Assembly: GCA_021841935.1 (NCBI GenBank)
Contig: JAKCDL010000001.1
Span: 195,679 to 259,678, forward strand
DNA: 64,000 nucleotides
Origin: Actinomycetes bacterium
Lineage (GTDB): Bacteria > Actinomycetota > Acidimicrobiia > Acidimicrobiales > Acidimicrobiaceae
Direction: 5' to 3'
Shown piece after piece: positions 5,748-25,420 of this stretch. The notes beneath the pieces are model-generated. The model was given only the letters and a program-made list of their open reading frames with translations. It was not told where the DNA came from and made no database searches. The position numbers were made by a program, and so were the translations under genes. Position 1 is the first letter of the stretch. Every line of letters starts with the position of its first letter.

Positions 5748-6811
5748 CTATATTTTCTCCCGCTGTAGCGATTAGACGAAATACTTTTTATCGTCGCCCA
5801 TAACACGTACCGAATCTACAAACACCGCATATACAAGGGCTAAAGCAAGTTCGAACGATTCATTAACTCTTACTTACAAAGGTCTTGGAGTCCACATGCA
5901 CCGAATAGCCAAGGATTATTTCCGTGAACCAAAGGGCAATTTAGGTAAACTCAGGCGTATTGCTTTGTTGGCAAAGAGGGTTGCCACTACAACTTCATAT
6001 CTTTGAGATATCTCAATTATTCATCGTTCAAGAGCTCGTGAAGCTCGACCCTTATTTTCGTGGTTTCCAGGTGAGTTTCGCTTTTGACTTAGATTAAATG
6101 ACAGGATCCCCCTTTTATTTGATGTGCTCAAAAGGCAAAGTAGCCGTATCGTAAGATCAAGCCAACGTATTGATACAAAGCCTTGTCGGCGATGGGCATA
6201 ACTCGAGAATTTGACGAAGGCAACTCGCCATCGAAGCACCGAGTGGAGGCCACAGGCAGATTCCATTAACAACCCTTAATAGGCCTAACGTGCCTCGCCT
6301 AGCACGTTAGGCCTCGACCACCGCTCTTGAACAATAGGTCGTTGGTCGGGATATGACTACCTCTACAACAAAAAAACACGCTGGGGCGATCCCGATCGAG
6401 CAAGATAAACGGATTCAATGCCGGAGTTAACTTGAGAGTAACCTCAGAAGTGGCTCGTTTCTTCGCTACCTAAGATCTACAAATCGCATCCATCGGCTAT
6501 TCGCATCACTGGCAACCCTCAAATTTAACAAGCGTGAACTCCTTCATAAGAGATCATTTCCAACTTGCTTCACGTTGTAGTGCCAAATTTTGCCGTCAAG
6601 GTTGGACCGCGGGTCAAGCCTGAACGAAGTTATGGGTAAACATGGGCCAACTGTAGCAACCAAGACTCTCTTACTATCGGCCCTGTCCCAGCTCCTGATC
6701 GTCGAAAAAGGCAGCTGGATGTGGTTCTTCAACAATCGTCTCGCAAATTAAGGCCTAATCAACTACAGCTCATATCAAGCAGGAAAAGATAATTACCAGA
6801 ATCGCAATACA
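5748..6811. other. Long intergenic region, no supported gene
   Basis: About 1.06 kb between the ABC operon and a secreted-protein gene. No frame shows a recognisable protein, and no tRNA-like sequence was found. It must hold the promoter of the ABC operon near 5750-5850. A perfect hairpin lies at 6281-6314 and is listed separately. Confidence 0.6.
6281..6314. repeat. Perfect 13-bp inverted repeat (hairpin)
   Basis: The arms AGGCCTAACGTGC (6281-6293) and GCACGTTAGGCCT (6302-6314) are exact complements around an 8-nt loop. No T-run follows on either strand, so it is not a classic intrinsic terminator. It lies inside a 1-kb gap without genes. It could be an operator, a remnant of a mobile element, or the terminator of an unannotated RNA. 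Confidence 0.8.
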
Positions 6812-7834: not shown

Positions 7835-8350
7835 ACCTGCCTGACCTTACACCTTCCCTTGGCGCTAATGTTGAAAGCAAACTCCGGAACTCAAACTTTG
7901 TCTTGAATCACGGTAACTATGAAAGCAACCGCTTTATCAAGCGGCCTTCAGTGGAACTCGGCAACGATTTCGCTACTTATATCTCCAACCCTACCTCTGT
8001 AACAGCTTCCGCATCACAACAGTGGTGCTCACCTGGCGTCTCTGTGCTGCGAAATTCACGCGTTCTCGCATCGGCGAAAGACCTATTTCGTCATTCGCTT
8101 GGGACGCTAAGTAATCACTTTGACATTCCTAGGAACTACTTACTAGCCAAAGTTCAGGAGATGACATATAGCTATCGGCATCCCTTGCGCCAGCATATGT
8201 ATTGGAGTGCATATTATGGGAGTGATAATTTACCGCAGCGCTGAGACTGCTCTCCACTACGGCAAATTCCCGAATGAAAGCTTCACAAGACTACGCCTTA
8301 TCGACGTGCTAAATCGCTTGACTAGAGTCGCTGTCGTCACGCACATAAAG
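7835..8350. other. Intergenic region, nothing recognised
   Basis: About 0.5 kb upstream of the secreted-protein gene and downstream of the LLM oxidoreductase gene, both on the minus strand. A plus-strand open frame crosses it, but its composition is random-looking and it overlaps the start of the secreted-protein gene, so it is not called. The region presumably holds the promoter of the secreted-protein gene. Confidence 0.5.
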
Positions 8351-9283
8351 TTAGCTAAATTGACTCTTCACTCCGTCGCTGATATCACGCAGATGATCTA
8401 AATCATCCAAGTCGAGGATTTGAAGGTAAACCCTTTGGGCTCCTATCTCTTGATAACGAGAGATCTTTTCGACTATCTGCTCAGCCGATCCACACAGGCC
8501 ATTCTCGGTCAAATCATCTATGGACCTGCCAATTGAACTAGCTCTGCGCGTTAGGGTTTCGCTGTCGTTTCCTAGGCAGGCTACGAGCGCGACCGAGTTA
8601 ATAATCCCAGAGGGAGACCGACCTGAACTCTCTGCGGCAACGCTAACTAATTCAAATTGCTCCTTGCACTTTTCAATCGATGCAAAGGGCACGTTGTACT
8701 CTTGTGCAAATGCTCCCGCTAATGCTGGAGTCTTCTTTGGACCACGTCCACCGATAATGATCGGCGGATGTGGGTCACTAACGGGCTTCGGTAATGCAGG
8801 AGAGTTCTCAAGCTTGTAGTACTTTCCGTCGTAGCTAAAACCATCGCCGATCTTCGTCTTCCAAAGTCCCGTGATAATCTCCAACTGCTCTTTCAGGCGA
8901 TCAAATCGTTCGGAAGTATCTGGGAACTCTATGCCATAGGCTCGGTGCTCCGCTTCAAACCATCCTGCTCCGAGGCCTAGCTCTATTCGACCATTCGACA
9001 TCTCGTCGACCTGAGCTACAGAAATCGCTAGAACTCCAGGAGCACGAAACGTAGCCGAAGTAAGCAGAGTTCCGAGACGAATTGTAGACGTCTCACGAGC
9101 GATCGCGCCAAGAGTAACCCACGAATCCGAAGGTCCGGGATATGGCGAACCATCCCCCATCCTTAGGTAGTGGTCCGATCTAAAGAAAGCATCGAAACCA
9201 AGCTCTTCAGCTTTTTGAGCTACCTTCAATTGCTGCGAATAACTAGCTCCCTGTTGGGGCTCTATAAAGACTCTTAACTTCAT
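8351..9283 (-). CDS. LLM-class F420-dependent oxidoreductase
   Basis: Cytoplasmic TIM-barrel oxidoreductase of 310 residues, of the luciferase-like monooxygenase superfamily. The N-terminal KLRVFIEPQQG, then AEELGFDAFFRSDHYLRMG, GTLLTSATFRAPG, and LGLGAGWFEAEHRAYG followed by SERFDRLKEQLEI are the typical order for actinobacterial members that use coenzyme F420 (TIGR03560-like). Substrates of such enzymes vary widely and cannot be read from sequence. It starts with ATG at 9283 and stands alone. Use of F420 rather than FMN is inferred from the subfamily. Confidence 0.9.
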   Translation of the reverse strand: MKLRVFIEPQQGASYSQQLKVAQKAEELGFDAFFRSDHYLRMGDGSPYPGPSDSWVTLGAIARETSTIRLGTLLTSATFRAPGVLAISVAQVDEMSNGRIELGLGAGWFEAEHRAYGIEFPDTSERFDRLKEQLEIITGLWKTKIGDGFSYDGKYYKLENSPALPKPVSDPHPPIIIGGRGPKKTPALAGAFAQEYNVPFASIEKCKEQFELVSVAAESSGRSPSGIINSVALVACLGNDSETLTRRASSIGRSIDDLTENGLCGSAEQIVEKISRYQEIGAQRVYLQILDLDDLDHLRDISDGVKSQFS

Positions 9284-11630: not shown

Positions 11631-12047
11631 ATGAAGAGTAAAGCGACGACACGCATCCGTCTGATCGACTCGAAGCTATGGACTGCGAGATGGTCGGCCT
11701 CGGACTACGCACCGGCGCCGGCAGAAGCACCCCTGCGGCCGTCGGCTGTCCGAGAGTTGTCGACGAGTTCTGGCCCTGCCGACTTTGCGTCGACAAACGA
11801 TTCTGCTGTGCACGGTATGTTTGGCGCCGATAAGGTCACTTTCGGTCTCCCGGGCGCATTGACTCAGGCAGAGAGCTACTCGCGCGGCATTCCTTCAACG
11901 CCGACAATCCGCGGAGAGTTCGGCGTGCCGTTCCTTTTATCGACCAACGGCGAACAAATTCTTGCGCGAGTGGGCGCTATATCCGGACTTCTAGACGGCT
12001 TAGGGAATGTATTTCTTGCTATTGCGTTCCAGGAAGAACTCTCGTGA
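11631..12047 (+). pseudogene. Degenerate N-terminal nuclease domain of type I restriction subunit HsdR
   Basis: Open frame of 138 codons. It begins TTRIRLIDSKL, like the HsdR opening 'TR..LID..L..AGW', then has TSSGPADFAS, GALTQAESYSRG and GVPFLLSTNGEQI. These match in order the HsdR_N elements around PADYAL, the catalytic strand, LTQAERYSRG and VPFLY-TNGE. The catalytic strand, normally G-V-V-E-A-K-K, reads GMFGADK, so the E-x-K residues of the PD-(D/E)xK nuclease are lost. The helicase and translocase parts (most of a roughly 1000-residue protein) are missing. Its stop overlaps the start of the Mrr-like gene (GTGA), so translation of this remnant could still be coupled to that gene. It could instead be a repurposed small protein. 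Confidence 0.6.
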
Positions 12048-12643
12048 GCGATGGAATGAGCGGTGAAACAAACCATGAAGATGTCGCGGACCGGTGGCCG
12101 ACGTTTACGCTAAGCCCAGGCGAATACGAACGCGCAGTAGCTGATCTTGTTCAGGACTCAGGCCACGAAATTACTGACTGGCAGGTTACACTACTTGATC
12201 AAGTCGAAGGGGTTGACGGGACGTATGTAATCGACGTGACCGTGCGCTTTAGACTGATGGGCGCCGACTTTCTCATGCTTTTTGAATGCAAGAGACATGC
12301 CTCGCCGGTAAAGCGCCAACACTTGCAAGTGTTGGCGGAAAAGATGCAATCAAATGGGGCGCACAAGGGTGTAGTAGTGGCTGCCACTGGATTCCAGCGC
12401 GGGGCGTTAGAGTATGCCAGAATACACGGGGTCGCGTGCGTCCGCCTATTAGACGGAGCATGGATGCATGAGTCGCGTGACTCAAAATCGGATACTCGAC
12501 GGACGACCGGAACCTATGTGGCTTACTCTAATGAACTTTTCGAGCGTGGATATAGCAACACGCTACTTACCAAGCAGCAAGGGTATGTGCGAGAACTGTT
12601 GTTCGGAACATTTCAGGAAGCGCGGCAAAAGGATCACGACTAG
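12044..12643 (+). CDS. Mrr-like restriction endonuclease domain protein
   Basis: Protein of 199 residues with a type IV restriction (Mrr-family) PD-(D/E)xK nuclease fold. D64 and the E81-C-K83 pair in LFECKRH form the likely metal-binding site. LQVLAEK and HKGVVVAATGFQRGALEYA follow, the conserved order in Mrr_cat domains. Such enzymes cut foreign, often modified, DNA. The start is GTG at 12044, overlapping the stop of the HsdR remnant; ATG at 12056 is an alternative. All nuclease motifs look intact, unlike its decayed surroundings. No partner methylase, specificity subunit or N-terminal modified-base-binding domain is visible nearby, so its activity alone is uncertain. Base composition is richer in GC than the housekeeping genes. 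Confidence 0.8.
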   Translation: MSDGMSGETNHEDVADRWPTFTLSPGEYERAVADLVQDSGHEITDWQVTLLDQVEGVDGTYVIDVTVRFRLMGADFLMLFECKRHASPVKRQHLQVLAEKMQSNGAHKGVVVAATGFQRGALEYARIHGVACVRLLDGAWMHESRDSKSDTRRTTGTYVAYSNELFERGYSNTLLTKQQGYVRELLFGTFQEARQKDHD

Positions 12644-13569: not shown

Positions 13570-13974
13570 GTGGACCGCAAGCAGATGGAGATTCTACAGA
13601 TCGAACTTGGAGCCCAGCGCCAAAAGCTGCTGTATGCGCACTATGCGGGGGCGATACCGATCGATCTGTTGAAGAGCGAGCAGGCCCGGATCGCCACTCA
13701 GCTCAACCGGATCCACGAGCAGCTCACAGCCGCTGATGCCGACTTCGAACAGGCACGCTCGATGCTATCGGACACCTTGGATCTGACCAGGGACTGCCAC
13801 AGTGCATACATGCAGGCCGATGACAACACGAGACGGCTCTTCAACCAGGCGTTCTTCGCTAAGATCTACATTGACGAAGACGACGAGACCAGGGAACGGA
13901 GCGTTCGAGTCGACTACAACGAGCCCTTCGACCACCTGCTCTCACGGCTTGTTCCCGCCCGGGCGCATCATTAA
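13570..13974 (+). pseudogene. C-terminal fragment of a serine site-specific recombinase
   Basis: The frame encodes 134 residues that match the end of large serine recombinases. A coiled-coil-like helix contains QRQKLLYAHYAGAIPIDLLK, then RIATQLNRIHEQL, then RRLFNQAFFAKIYIDEDDE. The catalytic resolvase domain and the DNA-binding recombinase domain (about 300-400 residues) are absent, and the open frame extends only to a stop at 13417-13419. The N-terminal stretch upstream of GTG 13570 is unrelated in appearance, so this is a truncated remnant. It ends about 100 bp from tRNA-Ala, which fits an old integrated element next to a tRNA gene. Confidence 0.75.
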
Positions 13975-14074: not shown

Positions 14075-14150
14075 TGGTGGAGGTGAGCGGACTCGAACCG
14101 CCGACTTCTACGATGCGAACGTAGCGCTCTTCCAGCTGAGCTACACCCCC
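14075..14150 (-). tRNA. tRNA-Ala (anticodon CGC)
   Basis: A 76-nt cloverleaf on the minus strand. The acceptor GGGGGUG pairs with CACCUCC and includes the G3:U70 pair that marks alanine tRNAs. The anticodon stem CUACG/CGUAG encloses the loop UUCGCAU, giving anticodon CGC (codon GCG). The T-loop is GGUUCGAGUCC, the discriminator is A, and the 3' CCA is encoded. The gene forms the right boundary of the decayed island. Confidence 0.97.
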
Positions 14151-14255: not shown

Positions 14256-14930
14256 CTAGCGATAGTTCGCAACTCTAGCTCTCTCATAACCACCTATGAA
14301 ATCGTTGGCCTTAGCCTCGAGAACTGGTTGATCGTACCGACCCCCTTGCACCATGGTTGGGTGGTGGCGAGATATGCCGTAGCTCTTCGTCGCCATATCT
14401 CGCATGCCCGCTGTTGCAAAGAGGGCAAGGATGTAGGCACCAAGGAGCGATAGCGTAAGCAGCGCAAGAAGGCTCGCAGCCGCGACAAAAAGAGAGAGCA
14501 GCCCCGACACTACAAATGCAACAACTAAGAGTGCAAGGATTTGGCGACGTCTATGAACTGCATTTGACGGCATTGGGAAGCTCTTCGTACTGCTACCTCT
14601 GATCGCATCAGCGCCATGTGTTATGTGATGCCCCTTTGCCAACCTGAGCTTTTCCCTCGACTTGGTGGCAGTGACAGTAGTGCCATTCGAAGAAATGGCT
14701 ACCGTCGTCCTAGTACGCTCAAGAACCATCAGTTGGCTTCGAAATCTATTTACAGATAGCTCTACGGTTCCGGTCACGTATCTATAAACGCCAACCGAAG
14801 AGATAAGGAAAGCCCAGACAGCTAATACGATTACAACAGCCATAACGAGCTCCTCGCCATCCATCGCGGGAATTACATCAATGTATTTTATCAGCCAATC
14901 CGAAAGATTGCTAGCAGTAACTTGCTTCAA
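14256..14930 (-). CDS. Hypothetical membrane protein, divergent from marR
   Basis: Protein of 224 residues with one hydrophobic helix near 28-50 and a helical pair near 130-175. A basic, Ser/Thr-rich cytoplasmic loop lies between them and a polar C-terminal tail follows. No family is recognised. The longest frame starts with TTG at 14930, at the edge of the palindrome shared with the marR promoter; M23 (ATG near 14864) is an alternative. No good ribosome site precedes either, so the transcript may be leaderless. Its first codons lie within the segment duplicated at 20698-20707 and 20713-21466. Divergent pairing with a MarR regulator commonly means that MarR represses the membrane gene, which is an inference here. 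Confidence 0.6.
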   Translation of the reverse strand: MKQVTASNLSDWLIKYIDVIPAMDGEELVMAVVIVLAVWAFLISSVGVYRYVTGTVELSVNRFRSQLMVLERTRTTVAISSNGTTVTATKSREKLRLAKGHHITHGADAIRGSSTKSFPMPSNAVHRRRQILALLVVAFVVSGLLSLFVAAASLLALLTLSLLGAYILALFATAGMRDMATKSYGISRHHPTMVQGGRYDQPVLEAKANDFIGGYERARVANYR

Positions 14931-14959
14931 AAAGATCTTAAAGTTTTCAAGTGATCTTT
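14931..14959. promoter_or_regulatory. Palindromic operator candidate for MarR (copy 1)
   Basis: The arms AAAGATC (14931-14937) and GATCTTT (14953-14959) flank an inner imperfect palindrome, CTTAAAGTTTTCAAG. It lies between the divergent membrane gene and marR, as expected for an autoregulatory MarR site. The same sequence is at 20721-20749. Confidence 0.5.
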
Positions 14960-15048
14960 GAGTAGAGTCGATGCTCTTTTACAGGAAGTTGGACCTCTGG
15001 CATATGGAGAGTCAAATTATCGACTAGAAGGCATGGAGGCTTTCGATC

Positions 15049-15552
15049 ATGAAATTACATCAAGTACCAACAGAGCAAGAGATTGTTACTTGGAGGGCAT
15101 TCCTAAGGGCAAATCTGCTCCTTGAAGCCTATCTAGATGCTGGTCTTCAAAGTGAAATTGGAGTAACTCACAGTGGCTTTTTAGTCATGACTCTTCTGTA
15201 TGAAGAGGGAGAAGAAGGCTTATCGATGACAGATATTGCTGCTCTAACTCAGTTCTCTAGGAGTCGACTATCACATCTAATCTCACGCCTTGAAGAAGAT
15301 AAGTATGTCGTTAGGAAGTCTTCTACCTTTGACCGTAGGAGCCAGATTGCACTTCTAACACTTGCGGGCAAGAAGACAGTAGAGATTGCTACTCCGTACT
15401 ACCACTCAATCCTTAGGGACCTCTTTTTAGATCGTATGTCTAATCAAGAGCTAAACACCATTCAAAAGTTCATGGTTTCAATTGTGAACAATACCGGCAA
15501 GATGGTAAATGAACTAGATCGAGATCGCCCTACTCGAGAGATTGCTATCTAA
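15049..15552 (+). CDS. MarR-family transcriptional regulator (copy 1)
   Basis: Winged-helix regulator of 167 residues. Helices for dimerisation flank a central DNA-binding region (about 60-110): LSMTDIAALTQFSRSRLSHLISRLEEDKYV is the recognition-helix part, and DRRSQIALLTLAG is the wing with the conserved DxR. The ATG at 15049 is preceded by GGAGG. The protein is identical to the one encoded at 20839-21342. It probably represses itself and the divergent membrane protein through the palindrome upstream, perhaps released by a small aromatic ligand as in other MarR proteins; both points are inferred. Confidence 0.93.
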   Translation: MKLHQVPTEQEIVTWRAFLRANLLLEAYLDAGLQSEIGVTHSGFLVMTLLYEEGEEGLSMTDIAALTQFSRSRLSHLISRLEEDKYVVRKSSTFDRRSQIALLTLAGKKTVEIATPYYHSILRDLFLDRMSNQELNTIQKFMVSIVNNTGKMVNELDRDRPTREIAI

Positions 15553-15563
15553 GAGATAGCAAT
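15541..15563 (+). repeat. Hairpin overlapping marR stop codon (copy 1)
   Basis: ATTGCTATCT and AGATAGCAAT form a perfect 10-bp stem with the 3-nt loop AAG, and the TAA stop lies across the loop. It stands just before a longer hairpin at 15581-15619. The same structure recurs at 21331-21353. Confidence 0.75.
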
Positions 15564-15580
15564 CTATAATGACTCTTACC

Positions 15581-15619
15581 GGCATACCCCATCGAAGCAC
15601 CGCTTCGATGGGGTATGCC
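15581..15619 (+). terminator. Perfect 18-bp hairpin after marR (copy 1)
   Basis: GGCATACCCCATCGAAGC (15581-15598) and its exact complement at 15602-15619 enclose the loop ACC. It is very stable and lies 30 bp after marR. It is probably a transcript end or stability element, although only CTTAATT follows rather than a T-run. In copy 2 one base of the left arm differs (21372). Confidence 0.6.
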
Positions 15620-15676
15620 TTAATTGCGTCACAGGCTCGTATCGCTAGCTTCGATACTGTACGTGGGTTGGAATGG

Positions 15677-16534
15677 AGCGACTGCACGATAACAGAGTGA
15701 GTTGTTCCTTAGCTGACGTAGCCGATTTATAAGAGCACTTTGCCGAAAACTGATTTGCGAACAAAGGTATTTTTACTCCCCTAAATAGCTCGTGGCCGGC
15801 CCCCTTGCTAGTTGCATGGGTTGTCCGCAACCAAAGAAGAGCTCCCTCGCCTTGATTTCTAAGAAAGTCCCACTTGAGTTTGAAGGGATTTAGCCAGATC
15901 GATAAAGTGCTGAACTTGACGCAAAGAGACCGATTCGAAAGCGTAGAGGCTAAAAGCAAATGGTTAGGTTGAGAAGGATTCAAATAGAGAGTGGACAAGC
16001 AACCGAGGCTCAAAAAAGCAGCGTCATCGATGATTCAAATCTAATCGTACAAACGGCAAGTTTTGAAAGAGTTCGCGGCAGCTAAACAGAAATCACGAGC
16101 GAGCAGATATCTTGACCGAATCTTCTCCCTACTGTCGGGCTCGATGAGAAAAATCCGGACAACTAACGGCATCGGGAGAGCTCAAGTGACTCTTGGGACA
16201 AATAATTTGCCTGTTCAAAAATTAAATTCAAAGACAACTAAAGAAGTTACAAGAGCGGTAGGCCGAGAGACGACCGGAAGAAAATTGCGCTCACAGGCTA
16301 CCATAGGAGTCAATTCCCAGCGTTGATGTAACCGACAATAAAACGTCGTCTCTTTGGTTAACAATCGCTCAACGATCCGTTAATTCTCGAAGTACAGATG
16401 CAAGGGCTTAATACTCGAAATGTAACATATATCTTCAAACGCCCTATTCGATTATCCAAGATCGCGGACTTTGATGTTCGTCTTGGGGATGACGATCATG
16501 GCTAGTTGCACAAATAGAAGATGAAGAGTCGTTA
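15677..16534. other. Intergenic region, no supported gene
   Basis: About 0.86 kb between marR copy 1 and the second response regulator. A 122-codon minus-strand frame (TTG start at 16013) and an 87-codon basic plus-strand frame (TTG start at 16063) cross it, but neither resembles a family or has a ribosome site. The promoter of the two-component operon should lie near 16430-16530. Confidence 0.5.
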
Positions 16535-17233
16535 ATGACAGAATTAGCCTCGCAACCGAAGATACTTTTTGTCGAGGACGACGCAGAGCTTGCAGCCTCA
16601 GTGGCACAATTTCTCACCGAGAATAACTTCCAAGTTGACAGTTGCTGCAGCTATGAAAGAGCGGTATCGATTTTAGAGTCGAGCGATATTTCAGCGGCAA
16701 TTGTCGACGTTATGTTGCCATCGAATAGTGGCCTCGAGCTCTGCTCATTCATAACATCGAAGTTTCCTACCATCCCTGTCATAATTGTCACTGCCTTATC
16801 GAGCGAGCGCGATCGACTTTCTGGATTTGAGGCCGGCTCTGACGATTATCTCGTGAAGCCCTTCTTGCTGTCGGAACTACTTGCACGGGTTCGAGTATTG
16901 ATTAGAAGAAGCAGAAGTACAACCTCAATCTCGACATTGAAGTTTGCAAACGTCGAGATTGATACGGTTCAAAACATCGCTTTCGTCAACGGCAACGAAG
17001 TAAGGCTCACTCTACGTGAGATACAAATTGCTAGCACTTTGATTCGCCGGGCGGGCATCGTAATATCGCGATCCACTTTGATTGCCGAAGTTTGGAACAA
17101 CGATGTGACTATCTCACCAAATAATGTTGACCAGTACATCAGAAGGCTCAGAGCCAAATTGTGCACAATAGACAGCAACTGCGAGATAGAGACTATTCAT
17201 GGCATAGGCTACCGAATTAAATTAGCTAGCTAG
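16535..17233 (+). CDS. OmpR-family response regulator
   Basis: Regulator of 232 residues with a receiver domain (acidic pair D15/D16, phosphoacceptor D58 in VDVMLP, T86, K108 in VKPF) and a C-terminal OmpR/PhoB winged helix ending ETIHGIGYRIK. It lies 14 bp before its kinase gene and forms a two-gene operon with it. It is a paralogue of the regulator at 484-1251, and the kinases are also alike. The target genes are unknown; the LCP gene that follows in the same direction is one possibility. Confidence 0.93.
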   Translation: MTELASQPKILFVEDDAELAASVAQFLTENNFQVDSCCSYERAVSILESSDISAAIVDVMLPSNSGLELCSFITSKFPTIPVIIVTALSSERDRLSGFEAGSDDYLVKPFLLSELLARVRVLIRRSRSTTSISTLKFANVEIDTVQNIAFVNGNEVRLTLREIQIASTLIRRAGIVISRSTLIAEVWNNDVTISPNNVDQYIRRLRAKLCTIDSNCEIETIHGIGYRIKLAS

Positions 17234-17247
17234 CGTAGGGTTTACCA

Positions 17248-18660
17248 ATGACCATTAGATCACGCATTGCCCTCATATTCGCACTAATGGCGGTGATCTT
17301 CTTCGCCGTAGCCGGAACAGTTCTCTACAGAAGTAACGACAACGCAATCATAAATACTCTGAAAAATGATCTCAATAAGACGAGCGCACGCATCATTGAT
17401 CAGCTCGACTCCAAGGTGATCCATCTTCGCCCATTGAACGAAGGTCCGATCTTAGTCAGAGAGCAAGAGTTCATACAAATATTCGATTCAACAAACCACC
17501 TCCGTTACACAACCCAGGGGGCGGGTAAGAGGCCATCAGTATCGGCCGCACTAGTAGATGGTGCGAAGATAAGCGCTCCCAGTTACGTGTCGTTTAGGAG
17601 ATCAGAGAACGATCGCTACCTAATCTTGGTTATTCGCGATGACACGACCAACGACGTCATCGCCGTCGGAGGGAGCATCGATCAGCTCATCGACTCGAGG
17701 AGCAACATCATCCTCTACATTCTGATCGGAATTCCCCTAACGGCGATTCTGGCATTTTTAGCGGGATACTACCTAGCAGGACGAGCACTCGAACCTGTCG
17801 AACAGCTAAGACGGGAGGCAGAAAAGCTCAAAGAGCTTGGAGAGGGTGATCTAGTCTCCGTACCCGCAACCAAAGACGAGATTGCAGATCTTGCCAAAAC
17901 GCTCAATTCAATGATTATCGATATCCGCAAGTCGATTGCAGAGCAAAAGATCTTCATCGCATCAGCAAGTCATGAACTGCGCACTCCACTAGCGCGCGTT
18001 TCAGCCGACCTAGAACTAGCTCTTCTAGAAGGTCGTACCCTGGAGGAGATTGAAGTTCTGATTCGAAAGGCAGACCGCAATATTCGAAAACTTGTAGTCG
18101 TATGCAACTCCTTACTCACGATTGCAAAGCAGGAGCGAGGAGAGGCCGACTTCCACTTATCCCCGCAAAGTCTCGATGACTTTATATCAGAGACGGTCGA
18201 GGGTCTTAGGCGAGAGGCGGACCACAAATCAGTTAACCTCGTACTCGACCTTACGTGCAAACCGCTCGTTGCAATCGACCCCTATCACTTGTCGCGGGCA
18301 CTTGAGAATGTCGTTGAAAACGCCCTTAGATACTCTCCTCCAAACTCGTTTCTGACGATTCGCCTAGTACCTCTAGGCGATGACAAAGTTCAGATTGATA
18401 TTCTTGACCAAGGACCCGGATTTCCTAGCGACTTCATCGATGATGCCCTCAGGCCATTTGCTAGAAGTGAAAAGACGACTCTTGACGTAACGGATAACAC
18501 ATCAGCTGGGGGCGCTGGTCTTGGACTTTCAATTGCAAATATGATCACCGAAATGCACGGTGGACGAATCGATATTTCGAATAACCCCGAGGGTGGAGCA
18601 AGGGTTTCCATCGTTTTACCGAAATTAACCGACGCTAAAGCCTTGAATGCCGCCCGATAG
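17248..18660 (+). CDS. Sensor histidine kinase
   Basis: Membrane kinase of 470 residues. Transmembrane helices near 8-27 and 153-174 enclose an extracytoplasmic sensor domain of about 125 residues. A HAMP segment (about 175-228) follows, then HisKA with the phosphorylated H242 in ASASHELRTPL. The ATPase domain has an N-box (ENVVENALRYSP), a G1 box (DQGPGFP) and a G2 box (GGAGLGLSI). It phosphorylates the regulator encoded just upstream. The sensor domain resembles that of the partial kinase at 1-483 and may sense a related signal. Confidence 0.95.
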   Translation: MTIRSRIALIFALMAVIFFAVAGTVLYRSNDNAIINTLKNDLNKTSARIIDQLDSKVIHLRPLNEGPILVREQEFIQIFDSTNHLRYTTQGAGKRPSVSAALVDGAKISAPSYVSFRRSENDRYLILVIRDDTTNDVIAVGGSIDQLIDSRSNIILYILIGIPLTAILAFLAGYYLAGRALEPVEQLRREAEKLKELGEGDLVSVPATKDEIADLAKTLNSMIIDIRKSIAEQKIFIASASHELRTPLARVSADLELALLEGRTLEEIEVLIRKADRNIRKLVVVCNSLLTIAKQERGEADFHLSPQSLDDFISETVEGLRREADHKSVNLVLDLTCKPLVAIDPYHLSRALENVVENALRYSPPNSFLTIRLVPLGDDKVQIDILDQGPGFPSDFIDDALRPFARSEKTTLDVTDNTSAGGAGLGLSIANMITEMHGGRIDISNNPEGGARVSIVLPKLTDAKALNAAR

Positions 18661-18880
18661 CTTGCCAAAGACGTAACTGATCGAACTACTAGGTAATCTG
18701 GCAAAATAAGCAACTAGCAACTACAACTGATCGATCATTTTGCGTCCCCTGGCCTTCAACGAGAGCGGAAAATATCACATGGGCCTCTCAAAAGTTGCAT
18801 TTGAACAGGCATAGCTACCGATGTGAGTAGATATTTGAGATCAAATTTTCAGCTCTCGGCTATGATGATTTAGGTTATAG

Positions 18881-20506
18881 GTGCTTGCAGAAAAACGCTT
18901 TCGCGAGCTTTTCAGGAGGAGCGAGTCTTTGGCGGAAGTAGGTGGCGCTAAAAACCCCGTCCACAGTCACAGCTCTCAAAGATCAAAAACGAATGGATCT
19001 AAAAGAATGAAACGCTCGGCGATAGTCGTTGGAGTTCTTGTGGCTGCCCTTCTTCTCGGAGCGCTCGGTTCGTATCTCTACGGACAGTACCTCTTCTCAA
19101 AGGTGAAGAAGGTTAGTGTCTCTTCCGAAACCACCCAGGTAGCTGGTCAACCATTGAATATCCTACTCATCGGGAACAATACACGAACAGGATTGAGTCC
19201 TGCGGAGGCGGCGGCATTTGGAACTGCTGCCCAGGTCGGTGGTGGACGAGCCGATGTTTCAATGATCGCCCACTTTGATCCTAAAAATAAAAGTATTACA
19301 CTTGTCTCAATTCCGCGCGACCTGTTTATGCCAATACCGGGTACCAAGAAGCTGCAGCGAGTTGATGCCGCCCTGAATCCAACTGCTGCGACTGGAACTG
19401 CTGAAGACCCAAATCAGCTAGTCAAAACGATCGAATACGACCTTGGAATCCCAATTCAACACTATGTTGAGCTCAACTTCGACTCGTTCCAAGGTATCGT
19501 AAACGCGTTAGGCGGAGTCAAGATGTACTTCCCGACTCCAGTAAAAGACGCCTACTCCGGACTCAACATAACTACGACAGGATGCCTCACGCTAAATGGC
19601 TCACAGGCTCTTCAGGTAGTTAGGGCTCGCCATCTTCAGTATCAACTTCCAAATGGAACTTGGGGTTACGACGGATTAGGTGACCTTTCCCGAACTAGGC
19701 GAGACCACATATTCCTACAAGTACTCGCATCACAAGTAAAAGCATCGGGAATCTCAAATCCGGTAAAGGATCTCTCTTTACTTAAAAGCGTTTTGCCATT
19801 TCTAACGATCGATAGCCAGTTCACAGAGTCAGAGATGCTGTCACTAATTCTCACCTATCGACATTCAAATCCAGCGGCAACCCCAACTGGCACCCTGCCA
19901 GTTGCATTTGGACCCGCCTCTGGGTACGTCTTTGACGGAGTAAATTACAACTCAATAGTTCTTCCCCAAGAGCCAGCCGACACAACGATGCTAAAAAGCC
20001 TCATTGGCCTGTCCCAACCGAAGATCTCACCGTCGCAGGTGAGCGTCACAGTCGTCAATGGTTCTCACACCTATGGCGTTGGCTCGCAGATTGCAAGTGG
20101 CCTTTCAGGACTTGGCTTCAACGCAATCAACGGACCTTCAGTGCCACCAAATGCAAATCCGGTTGAGTCTGTTATTTACTACACTCCCGGAAACATCGCA
20201 AAGGCGGAAGCCTTAAAAAGCACTCTAACTGGCGAAGTGATTATGGGACAAGTTCCATCTACTGGTTACTCCACTCCATTAGAGCTGCTAGTCGGAGACC
20301 AGTTGGCCGTCGCCGTTGCCCCAGTGACTACTACTTCGACTACTCAGGTTGCAACAACCCAACAATCTACAACCAGCACAGCCGCTACCGCTTCGTCGTC
20401 TACGGCAACTTCGCCATCGACGACGCTGGTCAGTATCACTGGCGCAACGCAAGTAAACGTCTCCCAGCAGCCACAGCCGTGGGATCCACGAGCTTGCCCA
20501 GCCTAA
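18881..20506 (+). CDS. LytR-CpsA-Psr (LCP) family cell-wall ligase
   Basis: Protein of 541 residues that would attach secondary wall polymers to peptidoglycan from undecaprenyl-linked precursors on the outer face of the membrane. A cytoplasmic basic tail is followed by one transmembrane helix (about 45-67) and then the LCP catalytic domain (about 90-310), with RADVSMIAHFD, SIPRDLF, NALGGVKMYF and the conserved Arg pair in LSRTRRDHIF. A LytR_C domain (about 385-475) and a Thr/Ser-rich tail close the protein. The longest frame starts with GTG at 18881; ATG near 19007 would remove 42 residues of tail. It lies inside the segment bracketed by the two marR repeats. Confidence 0.92.
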   Translation: MLAEKRFRELFRRSESLAEVGGAKNPVHSHSSQRSKTNGSKRMKRSAIVVGVLVAALLLGALGSYLYGQYLFSKVKKVSVSSETTQVAGQPLNILLIGNNTRTGLSPAEAAAFGTAAQVGGGRADVSMIAHFDPKNKSITLVSIPRDLFMPIPGTKKLQRVDAALNPTAATGTAEDPNQLVKTIEYDLGIPIQHYVELNFDSFQGIVNALGGVKMYFPTPVKDAYSGLNITTTGCLTLNGSQALQVVRARHLQYQLPNGTWGYDGLGDLSRTRRDHIFLQVLASQVKASGISNPVKDLSLLKSVLPFLTIDSQFTESEMLSLILTYRHSNPAATPTGTLPVAFGPASGYVFDGVNYNSIVLPQEPADTTMLKSLIGLSQPKISPSQVSVTVVNGSHTYGVGSQIASGLSGLGFNAINGPSVPPNANPVESVIYYTPGNIAKAEALKSTLTGEVIMGQVPSTGYSTPLELLVGDQLAVAVAPVTTTSTTQVATTQQSTTSTAATASSSTATSPSTTLVSITGATQVNVSQQPQPWDPRACPA

Positions 20507-20720
20507 AAAAGCTCGCTTTAATCAACCAGAGCATTAATCGACCTGTATGTCACCTAAGCAAGTTATCGCCCTCTGACCTTCGATAGAGGAGGCAATCGTG
20601 CCATAACACCGACGGCCACGTCAAACAGAAGTTAGCAACGCCTTCAAGAGCAACCCGTCCCCTTCACGCCAGCCGCAATTAGTTCTAAATTGGCTGTCCA
20701 ATCCGAATAACATGCTTCAA

Positions 20721-20749
20721 AAAGATCTTAAAGTTTTCAAGTGATCTTT
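20721..20749. promoter_or_regulatory. Palindromic operator candidate for MarR (copy 2)
   Basis: Identical to the site at 14931-14959: AAAGATC and GATCTTT arms around an inner palindrome. No divergent gene remains on its left. Confidence 0.5.
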
Positions 20750-20838
20750 GAGTAGAGTCGATGCTCTTTTATAGGAAGTTGGACCTCTGGCATATGGAGA
20801 GTCAAATTATCGACTAGAAGGCATGGAGGCTTTCGATC

Positions 20839-21342
20839 ATGAAATTACATCAAGTACCAACAGAGCAAGAGATTGTTACTTGGAGGGCATTCCTAAGGGC
20901 AAATCTGCTCCTTGAAGCCTATCTAGATGCTGGTCTTCAAAGTGAAATTGGAGTAACTCACAGTGGCTTTTTAGTCATGACTCTTCTGTATGAAGAGGGA
21001 GAAGAAGGCTTATCGATGACAGATATTGCTGCTCTAACTCAGTTCTCTAGGAGTCGACTATCACATCTAATCTCACGCCTTGAAGAAGATAAGTATGTCG
21101 TTAGGAAGTCTTCTACCTTTGACCGTAGGAGCCAGATTGCACTTCTAACACTTGCGGGCAAGAAGACAGTAGAGATTGCTACTCCGTACTACCACTCAAT
21201 CCTTAGGGACCTCTTTTTAGATCGTATGTCTAATCAAGAGCTAAACACCATTCAAAAGTTCATGGTTTCAATTGTGAACAATACCGGCAAGATGGTAAAT
21301 GAACTAGATCGAGATCGCCCTACTCGAGAGATTGCTATCTAA
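20839..21342 (+). CDS. MarR-family transcriptional regulator (copy 2)
   Basis: Identical in protein sequence to the 167-residue regulator at 15049-15552, with the same GGAGG ribosome site, operator and downstream hairpins. Identity at the DNA level through the coding region points to a recent duplication or continuing gene conversion. Both copies look functional and would bind the same operators, so dosage or cross-regulation is the likely consequence. Confidence 0.92.
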   Translation: MKLHQVPTEQEIVTWRAFLRANLLLEAYLDAGLQSEIGVTHSGFLVMTLLYEEGEEGLSMTDIAALTQFSRSRLSHLISRLEEDKYVVRKSSTFDRRSQIALLTLAGKKTVEIATPYYHSILRDLFLDRMSNQELNTIQKFMVSIVNNTGKMVNELDRDRPTREIAI

Positions 21343-21370
21343 GAGATAGCAATCTATAATGACTCTTACC

Positions 21371-21409
21371 GACATACCCCATCGAAGCACCGCTTCGATG
21401 GGGTATGCC
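21371..21409 (+). terminator. Hairpin after marR (copy 2)
   Basis: Same 18-bp stem and ACC loop as at 15581-15619, with one mismatch because of A at 21372. Confidence 0.55.
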
Positions 21410-21823
21410 TTAATTGCGTCACAGGCTCGAAGCGCTAGCTTCGATACTGTACTTGGGTTGGAATGGCCGGGAAAAGAGCACCAGCAGGTAAACCAACACT
21501 ATCTTTTACCATAAAGACCCAGTTCAGGTTGCACTTAATTTATCCCCAAGTGGTCTTCCAAATTGGAACCTTGGTAGGTACTCGAAGTTATTTGTCCGAC
21601 CAAAGTCGATTTTTTCAATCTTCCAGGTTTAGAAGGAACCTTTTGATCTATCAAAACTTTGGCGAAACCGATGTCATCCTTGTCGAAAATCCTAGAGTCA
21701 ATCTCACCATTTTGTTTGAGACACGGCTACTAATGGCGTTATCAACTCCGCCAGAGGAAGTGCGATCATTTTGAACTTCACTCATGTCCACAACGTCGAC
21801 GCATCGCCATTGCTTTCTCATCG

Positions 21824-21879
21824 CACCAAAATTGGGGGGTTTTGGAATAATAGAGCACCAAAATAGGTGGGTTTTGGTG
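21824..21879. repeat. Two tandem imperfect palindromes (CACCAAAA-n8-TTTTGG)
   Basis: Two copies 32 bp apart: CACCAAAA at 21824-21831 with TTTTGG at 21840-21845, and CACCAAAA at 21856-21863 with a full TTTTGGTG at 21872-21879. The second is a perfect 8-bp palindrome around an 8-nt spacer. They lie 43-98 bp before the ATG of the broken ATPase gene and look like a double operator for it. Confidence 0.55.
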
Positions 21880-21921
21880 AGTTTAGATACCAGATTCCCA
21901 AATAAAGGATAAAGTACAAAA

Positions 21922-23256
21922 ATGCGCGATGATGAGATTCGATTTCGGCTCCGTGAGAACAACCCATAGTGGCAAGCTGCAGCAGGCGGAAAGGATCCTA
22001 CTAGCTGGGCTAATTACGATTAAGCACTGAAAACCCGACAGTTATCAGATCTAGGATATCGTTCTAAGTTACTTGACGACGTGGCTACAGGAGACCTAGA
22101 TGACAAGCTGGTTGTTCTTCGGGGTCCGCGTCGCCCAGGAAAGTCGGTACTCGTAAAAGATACTGCGATAGCACTTTGTAGACGCCGTAGTATCGATCCG
22201 CGCCAGATAATTTATCTCGCCTTTGACGGTATGGACTCGTCGGATCTTCGACGAGCTTTACATCTTGGACGAGAGTTGACGAGATCTATGAAAGATGCTC
22301 GTCGCGTTTGGCTACTCGATGAAGTTACAGCAATCACTGGCTGGACGAAAGAGCTGAAGTACCTCAGGGATAATACCCCTTTCGGAAATGATACCGTAGT
22401 GTGCACTGGCTCGTCATGGGATGCTACGTCAAACGTAGAACGAGATCTTATGGCAGGCAGATCAGGTTACCGATCCGAACAACGCATTCGAACTCTTCAT
22501 CCAATGTCATTCCGTGAAGTTATCCACGCGACAAATCGAGACATACCAACCTTTGAAATGGTAAAACCGTGGGATCTGCAATCTCCAACGGCCCTGAACA
22601 TCGCGGAATCGCTCGAACACTTCGTCAATGAACTCGATGATGCGTGGCAATCCTATCTCACATCCGGCGGTTTTCCTCGCGCAGTTGCTGAGAGCTATAC
22701 AACTGGCTTTGTGAGCGACTCGTTCTTGGAAGATCTTTCGTCGTGGTTATTTCGAGATATTGATCCCGATGCAGGTGTAGGCTCAGTTCCAAGGTTACTC
22801 GCATCCATTGAATCGCACAGCGGCTCACCTCTTACAAGGAGTAAACTAGTCCAAGAGTTGAACTACTCTGACAAAAACACCTTCGAAGTACGATTGAACC
22901 GACTTTCGCACGCTTATGCGGCAATCTGGTGTCACCAAGTTGATTCAGACGGAAACCGATTCAGAGGATCCCAATCAAAGTTTTACCTCGCAGATCCCCT
23001 ACTGGCCTGGATAGGACACCGCCTAACGCCAGGCTCTCCGTCTCCAGATTTTTCAAGGGTCCCAATTCAGAGTCCAGACCGTATCATGATGAGCGATCCT
23101 ATTGAATCCAAATGGGTGGCTAATGCCTGGCAAGGAGAGGCTCGAGTCATCGAAAACTACTTTTCGGGCGGAATTGTAGCTACACGATCCATTACCGATA
23201 CATCAAAACCTTCTTGGGCGCTTCCGGCTCCGGTGGTTGCACTTCTTTTGGAATAG
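21922..23256 (+). pseudogene. AAA+ ATPase of the AAA_14 type, broken by two in-frame stop codons
   Basis: From ATG 21922 the frame reads a conserved opening (LRENNP, then W, DPTSWANYD, ALKTRQLSDLGYRSKLLDDV) that joins in frame to the ATPase from 22081. It is interrupted by TAG at 21967-21969, where related proteins have Trp (NPWW), and by TAA at 22021-22023. The remaining 391 residues are intact: Walker A GPRRPGKS with an unusual Pro where V is normal, Walker B RVWLLDE, a sensor-like CTGSS, and a C-terminal region with FYLADPLLAWI. Such proteins are stand-alone P-loop ATPases of uncertain role, often linked to mobile or toxin-like genes. A restart at GTG 22081 could still yield the ATPase core. 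It is more likely a pseudogene in an early stage of decay. Confidence 0.8.
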
Positions 23257-24478
23257 GCGCCCATAGTTACAAAAGTTGCGATTTTCTCGACAGACAAATC
23301 ACGTTCCCTCAAAAGATACAACAGTAAAGACAACCTGTCTCTTTGCTCTAAATTACTTACGACTCAATCCGTCAGTTGGGGAGAAAATAAAGATCGTACC
23401 CCTGCATATTTGCATCCTCGAAAAGATTGCAGTCAATTTGGTGAGTAACTCCATAAATTCATGGAAGCTATGTAACAGAAACACGGCCTATGCGTCTCAA
23501 TTGCCGAACGATCACAATAAAGCAAAACATTGCCCCTCTTCAAATGTCTATAGTGTCAGAGAAAATTCCTAGGGGTCCAAAGACCCGACGGCTGACGCTT
23601 GTTCGGCAATGAGGTCGGAGTTGGCGGGCTCGGTCCTTCATACGATCAAGTAGTTGCCTTCATAGATCTCACTTGGGGATAAGGCTAAATTTCAAAATTA
23701 AAGAGAACCATAGAATCAACTCTTTTTGAGCCATAGGAGCTCATATGTCATCGATTATCAAGACAACCTTTCGAAGTTCAGCTAAGGAGCGGATAGATAC
23801 AATTTCGCTTGGATGGGTGAAGCTATCCAACTGACGAATCCAAAAGGATCATCAAAGGGCGAAAGCATAATCGAAGTATGGAAATCCGAAAGATCTCTCT
23901 AAATACCCACCTTCGACTTCCCTGAACCTATCTTTGACTACCTCCTTGACATTTTCTACTCAATACAAACATTAAGGCGAGTTAATCAGATCGATATTTA
24001 CGTGGTCCAAACGTTTCGCACTGGTCCAAACGCTTCGCGCTGGTCCAAAGATCGTGGAAGAGTCATCGTTCACGCAAATGGCGTCTTCTTAGATTGTCGA
24101 TCAATGCGGAAAGGTTGCAGTTAAAGCGATTTCCGGGGTACAAGAAAAAGCTTCCGCAGATCCAATAAGCACCTCAGTCGATGCATCTGGCAAGCGCTAT
24201 ATTCTCAAATTTAGCTCTCCTGAGTCCAAGCAGGAAATATAAAACCGAATTATTCTTCATCGACTTCGCAAAATCCATCACAATCCCGACCGATGAAGCA
24301 ATGGTTGTTACAGTTCGAGTTGGCGAAGGGGGATCTTTAATAACTCGATTCGACCGACAAAGTTCGAACGATAGGAAAAAAATCGCATAGCCATGCATAG
24401 GTACATGACAACTGCTCAATACTTCGAAACCTCAGCCGCGGATAGGTGTTACTGGACTGAGTCAGGATCAAAGACTCT
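23257..24478. other. Gene-poor region with a short tandem repeat
   Basis: About 1.2 kb between the broken ATPase gene and prmC. Several short frames occur on both strands, none with a family match or ribosome site. A 19-bp tandem repeat at 24003-24049 is listed separately. In related genomes a Sua5-type gene often follows prmC; none is seen here. Confidence 0.5.
24003..24049. repeat. 19-bp tandem repeat, about 2.5 units
   Basis: TGGTCCAAACGTTTCGCAC (24003-24021) and TGGTCCAAACGCTTCGCGC (24022-24040) are followed by a partial third unit, TGGTCCAAA. The units differ at two positions. No coding frame explains them. Confidence 0.8.
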
Positions 24479-25420
24479 TCAAATTGACATCTTGACGTAT
24501 CGATCGTGTGCGGCGAAGTCTTTTATTACCTCGATCTTGCCAAACCCACTACTCTTTCCAATCGCGATCAGGTCATCGCCTTGGTCAAAGCCGATCTCGA
24601 AGTAGACGACGCCTCCGTCATTTAAATACTCCTTGGCGCTCGAAATAATCTTTCGATATGGATCAAGGCCATCTTCTCCGCCATCGAGTGCAGATCTAGG
24701 CTCCATAGCTAATTCAACCTGAAGCGAGGCTATCTCCGCACTCCTAATATAAGGGGGGTTGGATACGATCACGTCAAAGCTCCGATTCGAAAGTTTTTCG
24801 AACCAGTCACTTTGAATCACCTCAACCAAGCAGGCAATCTTTCCGCTATTTCGAGTTAGATTTTCTAAGGTAAGGGCACACGCCGCTTCGGAAAAGTCGA
24901 CCAAAACAACTGATGACGCGACTTTCGATGCTGCAATTGACAGACCAATAGCTCCTGTACCGGCTCCTAGGTCAAGGACCCTTAATTGGTTGGAGCCATT
25001 CCTTCGACAGTCGCTTATAACCAGTTCAACCAAGCCTTCGGTCTCAGGTCTTGGGATAAGTGCTCTCGAATCGCATATAAGGTCAAGTTCGAAAAATGGC
25101 CAATGGCCAAAGATGTATTGAAGGGGCTCGCCTTGGCTTCTTCGCATGGCCCAGCCATCCAATATCGATCTAAGAAGAAGATCAGATTCATCACTTTGAT
25201 CAATTTGACGATCCCCATTTGGATGCACCCCTTCGATGCGCTCCAACAAAATATCAGCGACCAATAGTTGCGCCTCGTCCACGGCCCAATCGATCTCTTT
25301 TTTAGAGTCAAAGAGTTCCAGATAACGGTCGTAGAAAGGTTTCATCTTCTGGCTATCGCTGAACATATTGAAGGTAAGCTCAGTCGTCGTCTTCAACGGA
25401 GAGTTGACGGGATCGCTCAT
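24479..25420 (-). CDS. prmC: Peptide chain release factor N5-glutamine methyltransferase
   Basis: S-adenosylmethionine-dependent enzyme that methylates the Gln of the GGQ motif in release factors. It has an N-terminal helical domain with QGEPLQYIFG and IPRPETEGLVE, a SAM-binding motif I (VLDLGAGTGAIGLSIA), and the catalytic NPPY in VSNPPYI. The longest frame (313 residues) overlaps the end of prfA by 41 bp; internal ATGs at residues 19 and 26 are plausible starts and would leave a normal-sized protein. It is the last gene of the argS-to-prmC block, next to its substrate gene prfA. Confidence 0.93.
   Translation of the reverse strand: MSDPVNSPLKTTTELTFNMFSDSQKMKPFYDRYLELFDSKKEIDWAVDEAQLLVADILLERIEGVHPNGDRQIDQSDESDLLLRSILDGWAMRRSQGEPLQYIFGHWPFFELDLICDSRALIPRPETEGLVELVISDCRRNGSNQLRVLDLGAGTGAIGLSIAASKVASSVVLVDFSEAACALTLENLTRNSGKIACLVEVIQSDWFEKLSNRSFDVIVSNPPYIRSAEIASLQVELAMEPRSALDGGEDGLDPYRKIISSAKEYLNDGGVVYFEIGFDQGDDLIAIGKSSGFGKIEVIKDFAAHDRYVKMSI

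Follow-up and report, generated by a model that had tools for sequence, protein, structure and literature searches.

Two copies of a marR repeat enclosing two-component and LCP genes: a duplication probably older than a species split and kept uniform within genomes

The window, that is, the whole 64,000-nt stretch of DNA that was analysed, contains a complete marR locus in two directly oriented copies that enclose a two-component system together with an LCP gene, as the initial annotation had described (Table 1). The copies are 754 nt each, lie in gapless register at an offset of 5790 nt, and alignment reproduced the five differences reported earlier, which are exactly 14982 C/T, 15582 G/A, 15640 T/A, 15642 T/G, and 15663 G/T. 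The MarR proteins are identical, again as claimed, and so is their coding DNA, with 0 differences in the 504 nt of 167 codons; the marR ATG lies 126 nt from the left repeat edge. This was the sole direct-repeat family of at least 40 nt found across the 64-kb window, and a search for further copies, which had been proposed as a check, found no third copy in the 2.53 Mb and 30 contigs of this genome (86.6% complete), the two extra matches being the hairpin pairing with itself.

Table 1 Features of the marR repeat locus (window coordinates)
Feature	Coordinates	Strand	Description
Repeat copy 1	14923..15676	+	Upstream region, marR, hairpin; five differences vs copy 2
Repeat copy 2	20713..21466	+	Five differences vs copy 1
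marR copy 1	15049..15552	+	167 aa MarR-family regulator; Pfam MarR_2 (PF12802) 40.4 bits, cut-off 27; PF01047 29.1 bits, cut-off 24.6
marR copy 2	20839..21342	+	Identical to copy 1
Hairpin 3' of marR copy 1	15581..15619	+	18-bp perfect stem, 3-nt loop
Hairpin 3' of marR copy 2	21373..21407	+	16-bp perfect stem, 3-nt loop
Response regulator	16535..17233	+	Receiver and Trans_reg_C DNA-binding domain
Sensor histidine kinase	17248..18660	+	HAMP, HisKA, HATPase_c
LCP-family (LytR-CpsA-Psr) glycopolymer transferase	18929..20506	+	Domain match
SepX/GlpR-like membrane protein gene, left neighbour	14256..14930	-	NCBIfam NF050099 E 1.6e-6; G008 homologue 59%
prmC-like gene, right neighbour	24479..25420	-	Directly adjacent to marR in G008 and G002

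A MarR domain over cut-off was likewise present in the proteins of three relatives (G008, G001, and G002), and the start of the LCP gene was picked to agree with the reading-frame starts of G008 and G001. The left neighbour is named SepX/GlpR-like only, given its score of 28.3 bits (22.2 bits in G008) against a cut-off of 150 for the SepX/GlpR divisome model NF050099. The names prmC and prfA are presumptive and follow gene order, with the prmC-like gene beside a prfA-like gene. Judged from position only, MarR is, as a guess, probably a self-regulated local repressor of this cluster of envelope and division genes. In a search for a wider regulon, the stretch upstream of marR matched only its own two copies in the genome at up to 3 mismatches, a result that fits self-regulation but is no proof of it, and scans for promoters and terminators returned fewer sites than in shuffles. 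At the 3' end, the marR stop codon of each copy lies within a perfect 12-bp inverted repeat (15539-15565 and 21329-21355), and the long hairpin follows just after this repeat, the copy 2 hairpin being the shorter owing to one difference. The differences at 15640 and 15642 sit within a quasi-palindrome (15638-15653 and 21428-21443) that folds as a 7-bp stem in copy 2 and has no stem in copy 1, a pattern such as template switching would leave.

The absence of a transposase and of terminal inverted repeats, reported earlier, was confirmed, as domain searches turned up no transposase in the locus and the edges of neither copy are bracketed by an inverted pair of at least 12 nt; the pairs of this length within each copy are the hairpins or otherwise internal. 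A mobile element was rejected as an explanation, since the one gene of the repeat encodes MarR and its edges carry no such bracket. In composite transposons, direct repeats bracket a gene set, as the marR repeats do here, but those repeats are insertion sequences with a transposase and terminal inverted repeats, and the marR repeats encode MarR and showed neither. A Campbell-type insertion, by one crossover of a circle carrying marR and the gene set, would leave exactly this layout and is a possible origin only; the unit showed no integrase, and neither an empty site nor a proven circle was seen. No relative was confirmed on viral contigs, and the seven plasmid records found were all distant MarR-type matches at 29-34% identity.

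The same layout was found in a congener, G008 (contig JAJZFV010000002.1, stretch L027), with two repeat copies 5349 nt apart and the gene order SepX/GlpR-like, marR, response regulator, kinase, LCP, marR, and, directly to the right, prmC. The G008 copies have no differences across a 632-nt core and three across 924 nt (8334-9257), and their marR genes are identical. The three differences make up the loop of a 43-nt palindrome found after each marR copy (L027 9177-9219 and 14526-14568); this loop is inverted in one copy relative to the other. The stretch of unbroken identity falls just short of prmC, with 4 nt left to its stop codon, a limit to be expected if longer tracts were purged. At the left edge, the sequence TGCTTCAAAAAGA stands at the same place in five sequences, namely both window copies, both G008 copies, and the single G001 copy; it occurs nowhere else in the window, L027, or the G001 stretch L028, and stretch L029 is without it altogether. 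Similarity had been described as continuing leftward to 14895/20698, and a 10-nt match (CCAATCCGAA) together with a gap does exist there. This extension is weak, as local alignment of the window left flanks was equalled by 0.75% of shuffles at 40 nt and 1.4% at 100 nt, and it is not seen in G008, where the alignment of the 40-nt left flanks is at chance level (equalled by 95% of shuffles). The statement that the opening codons of the divergent membrane gene lie within the repeat could not be upheld, because the TTG start at 14930 is not common to the G008 homologue, the reading frame of which opens at 8306, ~30 nt outside the repeat (repeat start 8334-8336), and similarity between the two proteins starts near window 14894, also outside the repeat.

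Divergence between species was compared for marR and its neighbours. The marR coding DNA is 85.6% identical between the window and G008, 85.0% between the window and G001, and 87.8% between G008 and G001, while the window and G008 MarR proteins are 96.4% identical. Silent-site counts by a Nei-Gojobori script gave 0 differences of ~117 sites within each genome and 64.5 of 117.8 between the window and G008, with a silent pS for marR of 0.49-0.59 between species. Protein identity between the window and G008 was 71% for the response regulator, 82% for the kinase, 86% for LCP, and, for the outer neighbours, 59% for the SepX/GlpR-like protein, 55% for prmC, and 97% for prfA. Silent pS for the six other genes compared was 0.69-0.90 (prfA 0.70-0.76), at or near saturation, and marR lies below all six, prfA included, a difference that an explanation by concerted evolution does not predict. 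Among the 632 core columns of the four copies in the window and G008, 106 group by species, none by copy, and one otherwise. The tails past the marR stop are identical or nearly so within species and have no detectable likeness between species (shuffle fractions 0.10, 0.79, and 0.21). Copies in one species are thus closer to each other than to their orthologues, as in a concertedly evolving pair, and since silent and non-coding sites are homogenised as well, more than protein constraint is at work. A long hairpin is present in each species' tail, with 16-21-bp stems in the five stretches folded; hairpins were considered as break sites and set aside, as stems of this length seem too short.

The initial annotation had called the duplication recent. 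This was rejected as probably wrong on the G008 layout, the between-species divergence, and the grouping of columns by species: the same two-copy layout and left breakpoint occur in G008, where neighbouring genes have diverged to or near silent saturation, so the duplication is most likely older than the split of the two species, and the identity of the copies is what is recent. Layout, left breakpoint, identity within species, and divergence between species are all seen in two species, and the placing of the duplication before the split accordingly refers to these two genomes, the window and G008. The reading we prefer, at a probability of roughly 0.7, is that the duplication predates the species split and that gene conversion or unequal crossing-over has kept the copies uniform, in other words, concerted evolution. 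Before the window species and G008 separated, and probably before G001 did so too, marR with its upstream region would have been placed on both sides, in direct orientation, of the response regulator, histidine kinase, and LCP genes. The copies would then have been made identical repeatedly by homologous recombination, either gene conversion or unequal crossing-over by way of tandem states, so that the pair changes in concert within each species as the species diverge. By analogy with tufA/tufB, we infer RecA-type gene conversion or unequal crossing-over as the mechanism, and selection as what keeps both copies. The 5 kb between the copies had been described as open to loss or amplification, and we agree that the structure invites homologous recombination; a deletion between the copies would remove the two-component system and the LCP gene.

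Separate recent duplications of marR in each species, landing at one and the same site, are unlikely. Such events would give zero silent differences within a genome with no need of conversion, yet two of them would have had to agree in the left breakpoint, to the base, as well as in the genes enclosed and in orientation, and the copies stand 5 kb apart instead of in tandem.

The G001 contig (JAKAZZ010000099.1, 5950 bp, coverage 3.4; stretch L028, of which L025 is the reverse complement) bears on further readings. It reads LCP, marR, response regulator, kinase, so that a single marR touches both ends of a unit of ~5.8 kb, and its first 126 bases (L028 1-126) recur at 5816-5941, 9 bases from the other end. 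These terminal 9 bases differ, with no clean continuation of the match, perhaps through strain variation in the kinase-LCP spacer. The contig is most simply read as a locus with two copies that the assembler collapsed, and a tandem array or circle is possible. In G001, no contig ends overlapping the repeat were found (besides the contig itself only short matches, at E 0.078 or worse), the prmC contig carries no marR relative in the 3.1 kb from prmC to its end, and no SepX/GlpR-like gene was found. The comparison of one-copy and two-copy states proposed earlier thus yielded two copies in G008 and one marR on the circle-like contig of G001. In a bolder and distinctly improbable extension, the marR pair would be a maintained recombination handle, by which some members of the population amplify the ~5.8-kb two-component/LCP unit into tandem arrays or circles. 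If true, this would set the dose of an envelope-stress module, the same recombination would keep the marR copies identical, and the G001 contig would be a real junction instead of a collapsed repeat. Slightly less credible still is that a marR-bounded unit, amplified or excised, was assembled into the present layout, with either a chromosome A-R-B and a separate circle R-X or a tandem array written out as A-R-X-R-B. In principle, A-R-B with a circle and A-R-X-R-B share one assembly graph, and the gene order, the 126 identical bases near the ends, and the unit length on L028 would fit. The same contig, however, results if the assembler simply collapses a repeat present in two copies, the 126-nt repeat is not exactly terminal, with 9 differing bases beyond it, and the occurrence of an LCP gene of this kind in 11 of the 12 genus genomes (E <= 1e-20) speaks for a core chromosomal gene.

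Equally improbable is that the second copy is an assembly artefact: repeats of 750-920 nt are longer than usual short-read inserts and two of the source genomes are metagenome bins (contig coverages 6.7 and 3.4), but the same layout occurs in two separate assemblies, the copies differ at five positions in the window and three in G008 with unlike flanks, and in G001, too, marR links the two ends of the unit. Both copies are seen outright in two genomes only, the window's and G008, all of these being draft assemblies and the evidence from G001 indirect. Near-identical copies can be merged in metagenome assemblies, so the exact identity may be overstated; merging could hardly hide a 15% difference between copies. 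A long-read study of Mycobacterium tuberculosis describes short reads in general as serving repeats poorly (PMC12046097).

Close relatives of MarR outside this genome were found only in G001 (97%) and G008 (96%), followed by G002 (56%), while a MarR match at E <= 0.001 was present in 38 of 41 genomes (its own and 40 relatives). At the DNA level, the repeat matched in three of the 12 genus genomes, its own included, and nine were without it. In G002, the 56% marR is convergent with prmC at a distance of 114 nt, the place of copy 2, and the LCP (83%) and SepX/GlpR-like (31%) genes are on contigs other than that of marR; the SepX/GlpR-like gene adjoins moaC-, moaA-, and moeA-like genes, with MoeA domains found. 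This makes it doubtful that copy 1 is the source, as had been proposed, and favours copy 2 as the putative older position, judging from one outgroup and a distant protein. The only core site that can be polarised, 14982, has the G008 and G001 state in copy 2 and a derived state in copy 1, which says little about which copy was the source. Relatives of the kinase were found in G002 (41%), G009 (39% and 34%), and G007 (32%), with no marR relative around them (L054, L038, L040, and L039; tblastn E <= 1e-4), nor was there one on the G009 stretch with prmC. The LCP genes of G002, G003, G005, and G010 have different neighbours and no marR relative in those stretches, and at tblastn E <= 1e-4 none was found in L074 (G007) or in L075, which holds a second LCP of G008.

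Concerted evolution as proposed here resembles that of tufA/tufB and other long-lasting concerted pairs in its near-identity within a genome and divergence of orthologues, silent sites included (PMC5485169, PMC6053082). For tufA/tufB in repair-proficient Salmonella, conversion is reported at 2e-8 to 1e-5 per cell per generation and as lower in recA strains (PMC5485169). The marR pair differs from tufA/tufB in that it encodes a transcription regulator and encloses other genes, its directly oriented copies being separated by 5 kb. The second study reports long-lived concerted evolution to be rare in prokaryotes, with 22 of 26 concertedly evolving genes coding for parts of stable complexes, and the terms "MarR" and "transcriptional regulator" are absent from its main text (PMC6053082). 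Among the literature matches listed, none described a MarR pair under concerted evolution. A regulator pair kept identical around signalling and cell-wall genes, in species that are ~15% apart even within marR, would be out of the ordinary and well suited to a clean dating of conversion. The locus also shows that near-identity of repeats within a single genome may be misread as the mark of a recent duplication if no comparison with relatives is made.

Several features of the surroundings were also recorded. To the left of the SepX/GlpR-like gene lies a tRNA-Ala(cgc) (14075-14150), near a fragment (13570-13974) that resembles the C-terminus of a large serine recombinase, with 35% identity over 117 aa to a G002 protein. 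A full Resolvase/Recombinase reading frame adjoins the SepX/GlpR-like gene in G002, and the place has the look of an integration site. Between marR copy 2 and prmC (21467-24478), the window has an AAA_14 ATPase gene (22081-23256) and other DNA, a possible insertion hotspot; the corresponding gap is 294 nt in G008, and other reading frames follow prmC in G001. A Mrr-type restriction endonuclease domain (PF04471) is encoded at 12044-12643.
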